NCBI RefSeq assembly: GCF_007859945.1
Contig: NZ_SJPQ01000001.1
Location: 496,001-560,000 of the forward strand
Direction: 5' to 3'
DNA length: 64,000 nt
From: Pseudobythopirellula maris
GTDB taxonomy: Bacteria > Planctomycetota > Planctomycetia > Pirellulales > Lacipirellulaceae
Part shown: positions 11,349-15,738 of the stretch, piece after piece
Layout of the letters: each line of letters starts with the position of its first letter
Numbering within the stretch: position 1 is the stretch's first letter
Notes under the pieces: model-generated
Databases searched by the model: none
The model's input: only the letters and a program-made list of their open reading frames with translations
What the model was told of the DNA's origin: nothing
Translations under genes and position numbers: made by a program

Positions 11349-11882
11349 TTAATCGCTGCGCCGTTCGATGGCTCGGATCAGTCGCAGCGGAACGCCATGC
11401 TTGCGAAGCTGGCACTCCCAGACGGTCCAGACCGAGTAGCCCAACGCCCGAAGCTCACGGGCCACGCGCCGATCGCGGCGGCGGTTGCGATCGATCTTCG
11501 CCTCCCAGTAGGCGGCGTTGGTCTTGGCGGGCCGGTCGCCGCGGGGGCATGGGTGGGCGTGCCACCAGCAGCCGTGGACAAACACCACAAGCCGCGCGGC
11601 GGGGATCACGAAGTCGGGCCGCCCGGGGAGCGACTTCACGTCGCGCCGAAAGCGAACCTTGGCGGCGCGCAGTGCGGCGGCCATGGCCAACTCGGGTCCC
11701 GTGTCGCGGCTCTTGACTGCCGCCATCGTGCGGCTGCGCTGGGGAGAGGGCGACTCAGTCGCAGCGGCCACGCGTTTCGGTCGGTTCGATCGCTTCGCCA
11801 AGACTTGCCTTACCTTCGCTCCGGCGCGCCCCTCTCGCTCCCTAGAAAGTCCTCGCTCCCTAGAAGGGTAAGTCCGAGCCAT
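11349..11882 (-). CDS. vsr: Vsr-type very short patch repair endonuclease
   Basis: The family cuts next to T:G mismatches that arise by deamination of 5-methylcytosine. Residues about 50-165 carry the domain: RSRTMAAVKSRDTGPE, then LPGRPDFVIPAARLVVFVHGC with the catalytic Asp of PDF, the zinc-site segment GCWWHAHPC, AAYWEAKIDRNRRRDRRV and GYSVWTVWECQL. The first 45 residues are Arg-rich and not part of the family, so translation may start later than 11882. The called start overlaps the end of the upstream VKOR gene by 23 bases, which suggests coupling. No cytosine methyltransferase lies in the window, so its usual partner is not adjacent. Confidence 0.88.
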   Translation of the reverse strand: MARTYPSRERGLSREREGRAGAKVRQVLAKRSNRPKRVAAATESPSPQRSRTMAAVKSRDTGPELAMAAALRAAKVRFRRDVKSLPGRPDFVIPAARLVVFVHGCWWHAHPCPRGDRPAKTNAAYWEAKIDRNRRRDRRVARELRALGYSVWTVWECQLRKHGVPLRLIRAIERRSD

Positions 11883-13410
11883 TGGTCTGCGTGTCGAATG
11901 GCTGGGCGTCCAAAGGCTGGGCGTCGAGCAGTTGATCGCCTAACGGCGATCCCTTGCGGCGGCCGCCGCGTGTGGGCTCCACGCCGAACTGCTTGCTCCA
12001 AAGCTCGCAGATCTCCTCGACCGACGCGCCGTCACCCGAGGTGATCGCGTCGCCGTAGATCTGCAGCGGCAGACCGACGTCTTGCCGGCGTCGCAACGCG
12101 ACCCACAGCTCGATGTTGCGCTGAACGATTAACGGGATCTCTTGGAGACGCGTTTCAGCGCTCAGCCGGTCGCGGTCGGCCATCGTTTGCGCCTCGATCA
12201 GCGCCTCGGTGTAGCTCGGCTTCTCCTCGTCCCGCAGCATGAAGCTGTGCAGCTTCTCGAAGTGCTCCGGCTCAAGACGTGCGAAAGCCACCGCCAGCTT
12301 GGCGAGCTTGCAGGAGCCGCGCGACTTCCGATTCGCCTGCTTGACATAAGGGTTGCACAAGATCTCGGTCGGCACCGGGAGGATCAAGATCGCCACGTCG
12401 CCGCCGAACCGCCGCTGCGCTTCGATCAGCTTGGGGTACACCGCGCGGCAGTGGCTGCAGGAGTAGTCCATCATCTCGACCACAACGTGCGGCGCCTCGG
12501 GCGAGCCGAGGATCGGGTACTTGTACGTATCGATCCGCAGTTTGCCGCCCAAAAACTCGGCGACGCGTGAGCCGTTTTTGCGGCGACCGTGGGTCTTCTC
12601 TTCGACGCGAGGCGTCTCGGCAACGGGCGCCGGGGCTGGGCTCTCGGCAGTCTCGTCGGCCGGAGGCGTTTCGTCCATCTGCTGCTCGGCCGGGGCGACC
12701 GCCTTGTTGGCGGTGCGGGTTTCGGCCGCGGGGGCCTCGGTCAGGTCGATCGATTCGTCGAGCTCCGCGATCTCGGTGCGAGACATCTTGGGCGGCAACA
12801 GGATCTGACCGCCGACGAGCGCCGTCAGGGCGACGACGCCCAGCAGGCTCGGCCAGCCGAGACGGGGCGGTCCCGCGGGCTCCGTGGCGACCAGCGGCAT
12901 CGGCGAACCGCTCAGCGGAGAAACGACCGGCGCAACCATTGGGCCCTGGGCGCTGGACTCTTCAGACGCCAGCGACCGCCGCAGGAAAAACGCGAGCAGG
13001 AGTGCGGTCACCCCGGCGGCGTGGGCCATCAGGCAGTACAGGCAGTACCCCTCCAGGACGAACGCCTGCAAGCCAATGAACCACAGCGCGGCGCCCACGG
13101 CGACCGGGGTCGCCGCCTCGAGCACCCGCCAGCCAAGAGACGACAAGGATGCGTTGTCCGCGGGCGCCAACCACGACGCCACGAAAACGGCCGCGTAGCA
13201 GAGGGCCCCGCCCAGGGCGACCGACAAGCCGAGCCAACTCGACCACCGGCTCGCCAAGGCCGAGTGGCAGTCAAAGGCCGAGAAGTCGCAGCCCGCCACG
13301 GGGCCATCGCCGGTCGACAGGAAAAGGAACACCGAAAGCCCCGCCGCCACGAGTGATAGCAGCCGCAGGGGCCAAACGAGCAGCGGGCTGGGATTCGGGC
13401 TCTCGTGCAT
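11860..13410 (-). CDS. VKOR-family disulfide oxidase fused to a DsbA-like thioredoxin domain
   Basis: This 516-residue inner-membrane protein would make disulfide bonds in exported proteins and pass the electrons to quinone. Residues about 10-145 form a four- to five-helix VKOR domain with the paired cysteines C41 and C48 in the periplasmic loop and the quinone-side pair CLYC at 123-126. A further membrane helix lies at about 185-203, then an acidic/Pro linker, and from about 285 a thioredoxin-like domain with the active site CSHC at 317-320 (VEMMDYSCSHCRAVYP). Catalyst and oxidase are therefore one polypeptide. A GTG lies upstream at 13491, but the ATG at 13410 sits right before the first helix and is preferred. 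Its end overlaps vsr. Confidence 0.9.
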   Translation of the reverse strand: MHESPNPSPLLVWPLRLLSLVAAGLSVFLFLSTGDGPVAGCDFSAFDCHSALASRWSSWLGLSVALGGALCYAAVFVASWLAPADNASLSSLGWRVLEAATPVAVGAALWFIGLQAFVLEGYCLYCLMAHAAGVTALLLAFFLRRSLASEESSAQGPMVAPVVSPLSGSPMPLVATEPAGPPRLGWPSLLGVVALTALVGGQILLPPKMSRTEIAELDESIDLTEAPAAETRTANKAVAPAEQQMDETPPADETAESPAPAPVAETPRVEEKTHGRRKNGSRVAEFLGGKLRIDTYKYPILGSPEAPHVVVEMMDYSCSHCRAVYPKLIEAQRRFGGDVAILILPVPTEILCNPYVKQANRKSRGSCKLAKLAVAFARLEPEHFEKLHSFMLRDEEKPSYTEALIEAQTMADRDRLSAETRLQEIPLIVQRNIELWVALRRRQDVGLPLQIYGDAITSGDGASVEEICELWSKQFGVEPTRGGRRKGSPLGDQLLDAQPLDAQPFDTQTNGSDLPF

Positions 13411-13687
13411 GGCGAGGGTCGATCGCAATAAGTATTTCGATGAGTCGTCGGCCGTGCGCCGCGCGCACGGCCGAAGGAATGAGGTCCTCACGAGTATAAA
13501 CCCGGCCGCGAGCGTGCGACAGCAAGCCGGGCCGATGGCGGCCTGTCGACCGAGTCTCGCCGGCGGGACCGGGCGACTTTGACGATTACGCTAATTGGTC
13601 GGGCGCCTCGGGCCGATAGTAACAATCGCCCCCCCAGCACGGTTCACGACCGTGAGGCGGCCTGCCACCTCCCAGGATCTGACATCG

Positions 13688-14791
13688 ATGAACCTCCACC
13701 CGAAGGTGCGTCCGCTCTGGCAACGCGTGCCGTTGTGCGCCGGCCTGGCTGGCTTGGCCGCCTACAAGGCGTTGCGGCTGCCGACATCGATCCTGCCGCG
13801 AGACATCAAGGCGATTGTCCGCAACTGGGACTTCGAGATGTTCGGCAAGATCATCGGCTCCGGGCTGACGAGCGCGTTCATCGACCAGCCTTGCTACTTC
13901 AAGGCGCCCGCCAAGATCGAGCCCAAGGCCGAGGTGGCGCCCGAGTACCGCATGTCTCCCGAGCAGCTCAGCTCGTTCTACGAGCGCGGCTTCGTCGGCC
14001 CGTTCGACGTGTTCACCCCCGCCCAGATGCAGGACTTCAAGCACGACCTGCTGGCGATCGAGGGTCGCCCCTCGGCGACCTACGGATTCACCACGCCGCG
14101 TGACCGGCACCTCGAGATGCCGCGGCTTTGGAACTACATGCGGAGCCCGGCGGTCACGGAACGGATCGCGCAGATCTTGGGGCCCGACCTGAACTGCTGG
14201 CGGTCGCAGATCTTCTACAAGGGCCCCGGTTCGCCCGCCATCCAGTGGCACCAGGCGAGCACGTTCATGGTCGAGGACTACCAAGACCCGGCGATCTTCC
14301 CCGAGGACCGCAGCGAGATCTTCCAGATCACGGCGTGGATTGCGGTGGACGACTCGACAACCGAGAACGGCTGCCTCCGCTTTGCCGCCCGCTCGCACGA
14401 CCGAGTCCGCCCGATCTTGTTCGGCGGCAACGAGGGCTTCTACAACGCCGCCTTCCGTCTCGATTTCGACGAATCCGAAGCCGAAGTGGTCGAGGTCCCC
14501 TGCCGTGCGGGCCAGATGGTGCTCTTCACCGAACGCTGCATCCACGGCTCGGCGCCGAACACGACCGACCGCCACCGCTTGGCGTTCAACATGCGAGTGA
14601 CGCCGACCAACATCGCGGTTTACCCGAACAAGAAGCACTACCGCTCGGTCTACAACGGCGGCAAGTACGTGCTCGACAAGTGGGGCGTTTGCTCGCTGCG
14701 GGGCGAGGACCGCCATGGGCTGAGCAAGACGGTATCGCCCGAGCAACTCGAGCGAGACGGCGCCGTCGCGCCGCTCAAGCGGGCCGCCTGA
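13688..14791 (+). CDS. SyrB2-like Fe(II)/2-oxoglutarate enzyme with HxA motif: candidate aliphatic halogenase
   Basis: This 367-residue member of the PhyH superfamily is usually annotated as phytanoyl-CoA dioxygenase. In hydroxylases iron is held by HxD and a distal His. Here the first motif is WHQAS with H188 and A190, so the carboxylate ligand is missing, as in the halogenase SyrB2 where Ala118 leaves a site for chloride. The distal His is H286 (ERCIHGSAPN); R297 and R303 are candidates for binding 2-oxoglutarate. Other stretches follow SyrB2, as I remember it, in order: GFVGPFDVFTPAQM, QILGPDLNCWRSQIF, ITAWIAVDDSTTENGCLRF and VYPNKKHY near the end. About 95 N-terminal residues, with a hydrophobic stretch (LCAGLAGLAAYKA), are extra. 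No carrier protein or NRPS lies nearby, so the substrate is unknown. The SDR gene follows 47 bases later. A decayed or otherwise non-halogenating enzyme remains possible. Confidence 0.8.
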   Translation: MNLHPKVRPLWQRVPLCAGLAGLAAYKALRLPTSILPRDIKAIVRNWDFEMFGKIIGSGLTSAFIDQPCYFKAPAKIEPKAEVAPEYRMSPEQLSSFYERGFVGPFDVFTPAQMQDFKHDLLAIEGRPSATYGFTTPRDRHLEMPRLWNYMRSPAVTERIAQILGPDLNCWRSQIFYKGPGSPAIQWHQASTFMVEDYQDPAIFPEDRSEIFQITAWIAVDDSTTENGCLRFAARSHDRVRPILFGGNEGFYNAAFRLDFDESEAEVVEVPCRAGQMVLFTERCIHGSAPNTTDRHRLAFNMRVTPTNIAVYPNKKHYRSVYNGGKYVLDKWGVCSLRGEDRHGLSKTVSPEQLERDGAVAPLKRAA

Positions 14792-14838: not shown

Positions 14839-15738
14839 ATGCGGCTGGCGAACAAGCACGCGATGATCACCGGCGCCGCTTCAGGCATCGGTCGCGCGAT
14901 CGCGATGCGACTCGCCAGCCGCATGACGCACCTGACACTTGTCGACATCGACGCGGCGGGGCTCGAACGCACGGCGCGCGAGGCCCGCGAGTTGGGCGCC
15001 GCGGTCGACAGCCAACGACGCGACCTCACCCTACGCGACGAGGTCGACGCCACCGTGCAGGAGAGCCTCGACCAATCGGCCGGCGTCGACCTGCTGGTCA
15101 ACAACGCCGGGGTGACCTACCACGGTCCGACCCACGCGATGCCAGCGGGCGATCTCGAACGGTTGATGTCGCTCAACCTGCTCGCTCACGTGAGGCTCAC
15201 GCACGGCCTGCTGCCGTCGCTGCTCGCCCGACCCGAGGCCCACGTGCTCAACGTCTGCAGCGTGTTGGGGCTGGCGGGCATGCCGCGGGTGTCGGCCTAT
15301 TGCGCGGGCAAATTCGCGATGGTTGGCTTCAGCGAGTCGCTACGCAGCGAGTACGGCCGAGTGGGCCTCGGCGTGACGGCGTTCTGCCCCGGGTTCGTGC
15401 GGACCGAGTTGTTCGGCTCGGCGCCGTTGCCCGAAGGCCAGAGCAAGCCGAAGTCGCCGCCCGCTTGGATTTGTCTCAGCCCGGAGCGTGTGGCGCGACG
15501 GGCGGTGCTAGCGGTCGAGAGAAACCGCGGCCGGGTGGTGCTCGACCCCTACTGCTGGTGGGCGATCGGCCTGAAACGCAGGTTGCCGGCGGCTTTCGAC
15601 TGGGCGCTCTCGCTCGGCCGGCGGCGGCGCGTTGAGCGCAAGCGTCGCGAGCTGGCTGCCCTGGCGCCCGACCCCCAGACCGCCTTGCGGATGAAGTTGG
15701 GACTCGGCGAGAGGCCAAGGCTCGCTCGGGCGGCTTGA
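14839..15738 (+). CDS. Short-chain dehydrogenase/reductase (SDR)
   Basis: This is an NAD(P)-dependent oxidoreductase of 299 residues with the classical SDR pattern: cofactor motif TGAASGIG at 11-18, NNAG at 88-91, and the catalytic S141, Y154 and K158 (YCAGK). The acidic residue after the second strand (VDID) suggests NAD. The last 60 residues are basic and extended (GRRRRVERKRREL), longer than a minimal SDR, and may attach to the membrane surface. The ATG at 14839 follows a GGAGG ribosome-binding site. It lies 47 bases after the halogenase-like gene and probably shares its transcript, so it may act on the same substrate. The substrate cannot be named. Confidence 0.9.
   Translation: MRLANKHAMITGAASGIGRAIAMRLASRMTHLTLVDIDAAGLERTAREARELGAAVDSQRRDLTLRDEVDATVQESLDQSAGVDLLVNNAGVTYHGPTHAMPAGDLERLMSLNLLAHVRLTHGLLPSLLARPEAHVLNVCSVLGLAGMPRVSAYCAGKFAMVGFSESLRSEYGRVGLGVTAFCPGFVRTELFGSAPLPEGQSKPKSPPAWICLSPERVARRAVLAVERNRGRVVLDPYCWWAIGLKRRLPAAFDWALSLGRRRRVERKRRELAALAPDPQTALRMKLGLGERPRLARAA

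Follow-up and report, generated by a model that had tools for sequence, protein, structure and literature searches.

Halogenases of the SyrB2/HctB type keep both iron-binding histidines and have a small non-carboxylate residue in place of the iron-binding aspartate. In SyrB2 and CytC3 this residue is an alanine (HxA motif). HctB (hectochlorin, Lyngbya majuscula) is a three-domain protein that has a valine at this position and halogenates ACP-bound hexanoate (PMC6218459). In this computational study, His111, Val113, His227, Glu223 and Arg245 are named for HctB, Glu223 is said to occur only in HctB among the reported non-haem iron halogenases, and models are described in which this glutamate lies on the Fe-Cl axis or is paired with an arginine. 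Loss of the aspartate is also known outside of the halogenases. AspH, which belongs to another family and acts on protein substrates, has a natural two-His iron site without carboxylate (HxG), and for FIH it was reported that an Asp-to-Gly exchange retains some activity while an Asp-to-Ala exchange does not (PMC10947486). The P4H variant D414A, which had been built to mimic SyrB2, showed neither hydroxylation nor halogenation (PMC2767507).

The HxA protein of Pseudobythopirellula maris

The open reading frame P0001 of Pseudobythopirellula maris was analyzed within a DNA stretch of 64,000 nucleotides, which is called the window throughout. It occupies window positions 13688-14791 on the plus strand and encodes 367 amino acids followed by a stop codon. 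The frame is open upstream of the ATG at 13688 as far as a TTG at 13595, and the ATG is backed by the orthologues, as M1, N2, P5 and K6 were invariant in an alignment of ten rows. A sequencing or start-site artefact was ruled out, because the orthologues have the same start and the same motif. The features of the locus are as follows:

13688..14791, plus strand: P0001, a PhyH-type Fe(II)/2-oxoglutarate enzyme with HxA replacing HxD (profile, PDB and orthologue comparison)
13688..13939, plus strand: N-terminal extension, residues 1-84, nearly all missing from SyrB2 (alignment, model, charge profile)
14240..14257, plus strand: I185-Q-W-H188-Q-A190, proximal iron His and vacated Asp position (alignment)
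14258..14329, plus strand: long loop (residues 191-214) that connects HxA with the following core strand and, like the SyrB2 row, contains TF (alignment)
14531..14545, plus strand: E282-R-C-I-H286, distal iron His with a Glu at His minus 4 (alignment)
14576..14596, plus strand: R297 (2-oxoglutarate Arg by position), N301 and R303 (alignment)
14839..15738, plus strand: short-chain dehydrogenase (SDR) of 299 amino acids, the conserved next gene in Lacipirellulaceae (TGAASGIG and YxxxK, found by eye)

The PhyH profile PF05721 matched residues 97-297 with an E-value of 1.7e-26 and 94.2 bits, far above the gathering cut-off of 22, and the alignment spanned profile positions 1-211 of 213. It was the one PhyH match of the P. 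maris genome at E 0.001. The closest PDB sequences were SyrB2 (E 9e-36) and CytC3 (6.3e-30). The model for chlorinating enzymes, TIGR01762, gave 158.6 bits (E 2.1e-46) and thus stayed below its curated cut-off of 226.3. Five halogenase-type rows that were scanned reached 292-470 bits, and the HxD relative L018 reached 117.4 bits, so that the score of this model does not separate halogenation from hydroxylation. An AspH-type domain was absent among the four Pfam matches of P0001 up to E 1.

An initial annotation of this DNA had described a SyrB2-like halogenase candidate. Translation and alignment located HxA at residues 188-190 (codons of H188-Q189-A190 at 14249-14257), H286 (codon 14543-14545), R297 and R303 where it had placed them. 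The stretches that it had likened to SyrB2 were found again in the alignment with the PDB sequence, where they read GFIGPFDAY, ILGPNVLCWR, NGCLQF and VYPDSD.

Homologues with at least 38% identity were present at 39 loci, which yielded 24 distinct sequences after repeats of the same gene had been dropped. Ala190 and E282 occurred in 24 of these 24 sequences, P0001 counted. Down to 39% identity H188, A190, T215, W217, E282, H286, R297, N301 and R303 were invariant, and position 193, which was tallied together with the iron, 2-oxoglutarate and pocket positions, was the exception. The combination of both histidines with a small non-carboxylate residue at the position of the iron Asp, which is typical for SyrB2 and HctB, was likewise found in 24/24. 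A singleton mutation among HxD hydroxylases, named in the initial annotation as a result that would speak against a halogenase, was ruled out by the alanine in all distinct sequences; across the alignment, HxA has become fixed in a planctomycete clade. Two-His sites can take other ligands, and the vacant position might bind another anion, or the PhyH protein might be inactive or regulatory. Nothing specific favours this explanation, and the nine invariant positions over 24 distinct sequences argue for a working enzyme, making it improbable.

The second sphere and related variants

P0001 shares with SyrB2 and CytC3 the HxA motif, both histidines, the 2-oxoglutarate Arg, the TF following HxA, a comparable loop length and the status of best PDB matches. 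It differs at two positions of the pocket: at distal His minus 4 SyrB2 and CytC3 have a Ser and P0001 has a Glu, and at proximal His minus 3 they have a Thr and P0001 has an Ile. E282 stands at the position of the Ser that lines the chloride pocket of SyrB2, and R303 was aligned to R254 of SyrB2. Further differences are a second insertion, present in SyrB2 and CytC3 and missing from P0001, the lack of a carrier protein seen near P0001, and its TIGR01762 score below the cut-off.

The likeness to HctB goes further. Both have a two-His site without Asp, and I185, E282, N301 and R303 correspond to Ile108, Glu223, Asn243 and Arg245 of HctB, the last two shifted by one residue; these positions were matched by offset to the residue numbers published for HctB (PMC6218459). 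In contrast to the valine of HctB, P0001 has an alanine at the Asp position, and it consists of one catalytic domain that is preceded by about 80 additional N-terminal residues, whereas HctB has three domains and acts on an acyl-carrier-bound chain. Judged by these residues, the pocket of P0001 resembles that of HctB more than that of SyrB2. By analogy with the HctB models mentioned above, a halide together with a Glu-Arg pair would be believable in P0001.

Of the 25 HxD rows, 7 have a glutamate at distal His minus 4, compared with only 1 of the 11 halogenase-type rows. SyrB2-type rows have a Ser at this position, and three HxV rows (L055, L057 and L059) have an Ala. The Planctomycetota HxD PhyH enzymes L017-L021, L025 and L026 share with P0001 the family, an identity of 27-32% and this Glu. 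In contrast to P0001 they have kept the iron Asp and have a short loop of 17 residues. As relatives with an intact Asp carry it, E282 by itself does not prove halogenation.

Several variants of the motif were encountered among the relatives. L055, L057, L059 and L060 are relatives of the chlorinating enzymes with HxV, as in HctB. L060, from Nonomuraea, exceeds the TIGR01762 cut-off and has the Glu at distal His minus 4. A stretch of 72 residues after the L060 gene had no Pfam match and was therefore not called a carrier protein. The same Glu is present in L016 (genome G150), a relative with HxG, and in L058, a PhyH protein from a Halorussus caseinilyticus plasmid (match at 2001-2645) with HxH and a possible three-His site, encoded near a siderophore-synthesis gene. 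In these alignments the P0001 clade and L060 extend the HctB-type Glu beyond HctB; if the halogenase reading is right, the clade also puts to the test the published view that this second-sphere residue is special to HctB.

E282 is expected close to the vacated Asp site, and it could reach the iron when no halide is bound. It might thus serve as a relocated third iron ligand, with a rearranged triad and ordinary oxygenase chemistry. Its invariance in 24/24 sequences is in accord with this role, and so is its presence in the HxG (L016), HxV (L060) and HxH (L058) relatives, which would be expected if the Glu lets the Asp drift. In one computed model the HctB Glu lies on the Fe-Cl axis, but HctB carries the Glu and nevertheless halogenates (both according to PMC6218459). 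Moreover, seven HxD rows have Asp and Glu together, so in these rows the Glu serves a different purpose, which may be to pair with the second Arg. The Glu was rejected as decisive proof of an iron-bound carboxylate, since HxD relatives and HctB have it as well, and a ligand role of E282 in P0001 is regarded as rather improbable.

We lean towards P0001 being a carrier-protein-independent aliphatic halogenase for chloride or bromide, probably acting on a lipid chain. Halogenation was judged the likeliest activity because the nearest solved two-His members of the superfamily halogenate, and because the clade keeps their loop and has an HctB-like pocket. In such an enzyme Fe(II) would be held by H188, H286 and 2-oxoglutarate, the latter anchored via R297. 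The alanine at position 190 would allow a halide to bind to the iron where hydroxylases put the Asp, and E282 and R303 would form a charged pair behind or beside this halide, as computed for HctB. Reaction of O2 and 2-oxoglutarate would then generate a haloferryl species, which would take a hydrogen from an alkyl carbon, followed by rebound of the halogen to that carbon. The substrate would probably be a fatty-acyl or other lipid chain and not an amino acid bound to a carrier. On this chain the SDR would act on a neighbouring alcohol or ketone, by oxidation or reduction. Should this hold, halogenation of aliphatic carbons would belong to the ordinary repertoire of a bacterial family and would not be limited to a rare step of peptide and polyketide assembly lines, and synthetic chemistry could make good use of a carrier-free halogenase that acts on lipids.

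Fold, loops and tree position

An AlphaFold model of P0001 was built from ten close sequences. SyrB2 and CytC3 headed both fold comparisons (Foldseek E 2.7e-15; VIA Z 19.8 with 246 aligned residues and an rmsd of 3.4). The model had a mean pLDDT of 67.2 and is weak at the active site, where residues 184-203 were below 50. Hydroxylases came next in the VIA comparison, with GriE at a Z of 18.4 versus 19.8, i.e., within about 1.5 Z units. Because hydroxylases such as GriE follow so closely, the fold alone does not decide between halogenase and hydroxylase.

With 29-30 residues between the proximal His and the Trp, the loop of the P0001 clade lies in the range of the 11 halogenase-type rows (29-36) and is longer than that of the 25 HxD rows (16-20); it has 24 residues in the HxG protein L016 and 17 in the Halorussus HxH protein. 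The clade thus has the long loop after HxA that is typical for halogenases of the SyrB2/HctB type. It lacks another of their characteristics, a second insertion, about 20 residues long, ahead of the distal strand: the distance from the Trp to the distal His is 69-70 residues in the clade, 81-90 in the halogenase-type rows and 67-75 in the HxD rows. With a first loop of halogenase length and no second insertion, the P0001 clade is a mosaic.

A tree was calculated from 47 of the 61 gathered rows, from which 14 further orthologues had been dropped as redundant, after E282 and the HxA loop had been cut from the alignment. In this tree without the diagnostic columns, a planctomycete clade of nine rows was sister to the 11 carrier-protein halogenase-type rows with a support of 98/93. 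L016 branched just outside of the clade and the halogenase-type rows (95/73). Loss of the iron Asp took two changes on the tree, the second of them in the Halorussus HxH protein. An AU test revealed that grouping the P0001 clade with the HxD relatives that bear the Glu costs 13.75 log-likelihood units, which was not rejected (p 0.095). The tree support for a position of the clade beside the halogenases is moderate. With respect to the SyrB2-like nature claimed at the outset, the sister position to the tethered halogenases and the long HxA loop agree with it, while Glu282 instead of Ser, the HctB-like pocket, the missing second insertion and the score below the TIGR01762 cut-off do not.

The N-terminal extension relative to SyrB2 amounts to about 80 residues, as query residue 84 was aligned to residue 5 of the chain (83 to 3 in a second comparison), and the value of about 95 that had been given before was too high. 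The extension is kept in the orthologues, and a related sequence is present in the Alienimonas homologues. It has a net positive charge and a modestly hydrophobic stretch at residues 14-30 or thereabouts. In ten sequences the maximal mean hydropathy over 17 residues was 0.7-1.8, and the net charge of residues 1-45 was +6 to +9. In the AlphaFold model helices were predicted at residues 10-28, 38-46 and 49-57, and the ten-residue blocks from 11 to 60 had pLDDT values of 77-93. Charge and hydropathy of the extension would suit contact with a membrane.

Neighbouring genes, distribution and the Alienimonas homologues

NRPS, PKS or carrier-protein domains were not found in a Pfam scan of the 11 neighbours in the window (about 7-23 kb), which is in line with the description of the enzyme as free-standing. 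At other loci the neighbours were compared through BLAST or ORF starts. The SDR was the only gene that lay beside the orthologue in all nine loci compared. A link to lipid A, suggested by neighbouring glycosyltransferase 9 and LpxL-like genes of P. maris, was rejected, as these had no counterpart near the orthologues in the nine loci, in contrast to the SDR. Outside of two genera of the group f5 (g9 and Alienimonas), the SDR was adjacent in 16/16 distinct loci, 13 of them in Lacipirellulaceae genomes; L004, L008 and L009 are planctomycete assemblies outside the 13 assigned to the family. This number was derived from 19 loci without L001 and L063, which contain the P0001 gene again, and L044, L047 and L048 equal L002, L003 and L005, respectively. 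No SDR was found beside the gene at the six g9 loci and the two Alienimonas loci (flanks of up to 1.5 kb), and an SDR match was also absent from the wider loci L084-L088. The best solved chain for the SDR was HSD17B13 (E 9.4e-33), followed by acetoin reductase, FabG and HSD17B11; these relatives may point to a lipid substrate, which is a hint only.

Two further genes upstream of P0001 were observed on the minus strand: window positions 11863-13410 encode a fusion of a VKOR domain with a thioredoxin-like domain, and 11352-11882 encode a Vsr very-short-patch mismatch endonuclease, for which L003 and L004 contain homologous ORFs that are about as far away from the HxA gene.

The adjacent SDR is also what would be expected if P0001 were a hydroxylase or oxygenase without a protein carboxylate, with water at the third site as in AspH, and if the SDR oxidised the new alcohol. 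Hydroxylation followed by the SDR would be a simple two-step route, for which the adjacency in 16/16 loci speaks, and the wide retention of the gene in one copy is consistent with a core lipid modification. AspH is a natural hydroxylase with HxG (PMC10947486), so that absence of the Asp is not in itself a sign of halogenation. AspH belongs, however, to a different family, and its Pfam domain is not among the four matches of P0001. Furthermore, the loss of activity in FIH after Asp-to-Ala and the inactivity of P4H D414A in both reactions (PMC10947486 and PMC2767507) stand against it, as does the tree, which places the clade beside the halogenases. Judging from the inactive P4H variant, losing the Asp is of use only when other changes accompany the loss, which in the clade has been retained over long divergence. 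A two-His hydroxylase is thus considered unlikely, though it deserves more weight than a ligand role of E282; jointly these two hydroxylase readings are the main and a serious rival of halogenation, though the less probable one. If P0001 is a hydroxylase nevertheless, it would be a 2-oxoglutarate hydroxylase outside of the AspH family without iron Asp, and the rule of genome mining that HxA means halogenase (PMC12871659, Table 1) would be broken.

An orthologue was present in 35 of 43 Lacipirellulaceae genomes, one copy each; two genomes had weak matches only and six had none. Botrimarina and Aeoliella are among the named genera with a matching locus. When genomes with at least 90% completeness and at most 5% contamination were considered, 26 of 28 had a match. 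When 156 genomes were drawn from the order, matches at E 1e-25 were obtained in 24, all of them Lacipirellulaceae (24 of the 26 listed from this family), and in none outside of the family. In the f5 draw, 8 of 150 genomes matched, which belong to 2 of 58 genera, g9 and g21 (Alienimonas). With TIGR01762, 13 of 392 planctomycete genomes from a draw of the phylum matched at E 1e-20 and none exceeded the curated cut-off. Relatives from plasmids were also included (11 taken among the 40 matches listed, from 58 matching records). In a viral collection none of 48 pattern matches was confirmed as a relative, and phages yielded none. The wide presence in Lacipirellulaceae speaks against a halogenase, as a housekeeping role would explain it more readily than a specialised halometabolite would. 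Among the open-licence articles listed, no work on the HxA clade was found by title and beginning of the abstract, nor were halolipid or fatty-acid data for this family; PMC7717034 has no mention of fatty acid, halogen, chlor or lipid.

The Alienimonas homologues (L015 and L081) are about 39-41% identical to P0001 and were found in both genomes of the genus that were examined, A. californiensis CA12 (G361) and, very probably, A. chondri. A 2025 review describes a product of A. chondri in which a chlorinated fatty acid is esterified with 4-hydroxybenzoate, and it calls the biosynthetic genes 'currently unknown' (PMC12078418). The compound, alichondrichlorin, is a chlorohydrin according to the title of its description. 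In both genomes the next gene lies on the same strand, and its products are 66% identical to one another and have an HHxxxD motif, found by eye. The A. californiensis gene matched PapA5 (E 3.4e-8), wax-ester synthase (1.5e-7) and PapA_C (4.8e-6), all below the curated cut-offs, and had no PDB match at E 0.01. Enzymes of the PapA5/wax-ester-synthase kind make fatty esters. Elsewhere, a partial match to this gene (31-37% identity) was present in one of six Lacipirellulaceae genomes (G432), and the gene was not found in the P. maris genome or in two g9 genomes. Carrier-protein, NRPS and PKS domains were absent among five Alienimonas neighbours.

A putative chain chlorinator beside a putative esterifier fits what the A. 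chondri ester needs, which is an association and not a proof. If the halogenase reading is right, the homologue would be a gene candidate for the chlorinated fatty-acid ester of A. chondri (PMC12078418). A chlorohydrin could, however, also arise via addition of HOCl. A match to the Trp_halogenase model over the cut-off (42 bits versus 21) was present in both Alienimonas genomes; all six genomes searched had such matches, as did 5 of the 14 controls, among them E. coli. Searches of the two Alienimonas genomes for genes of the VCPO_N and AurF types were negative. Tentatively, and with clearly less confidence than in the halogenase reading as such, a wider scenario can be proposed. In this scenario a carrier-free membrane-lipid halogenase would be encoded by a core gene of Lacipirellulaceae together with the SDR, its Alienimonas cousin and the wax-ester-synthase-like partner would make the chlorinated fatty acid of alichondrichlorin, and the clade would be an early-branching sister of the SyrB2/HctB halogenases, with the HctB-type Glu being ancestral.

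Rhodopirellula baltica, which belongs to another family, has been reported to make a chlorinated fatty acid. Together with the lack of an orthologue outside of Lacipirellulaceae in the order draw, this indicates that planctomycetes chlorinate by other ways too. The P. maris genome itself contains a match to VCPO_N at locus L094 (G000:C1:1072571-1073026; 32.7 bits, cut-off 29.3), and similar matches were observed in two other members of Lacipirellulaceae.
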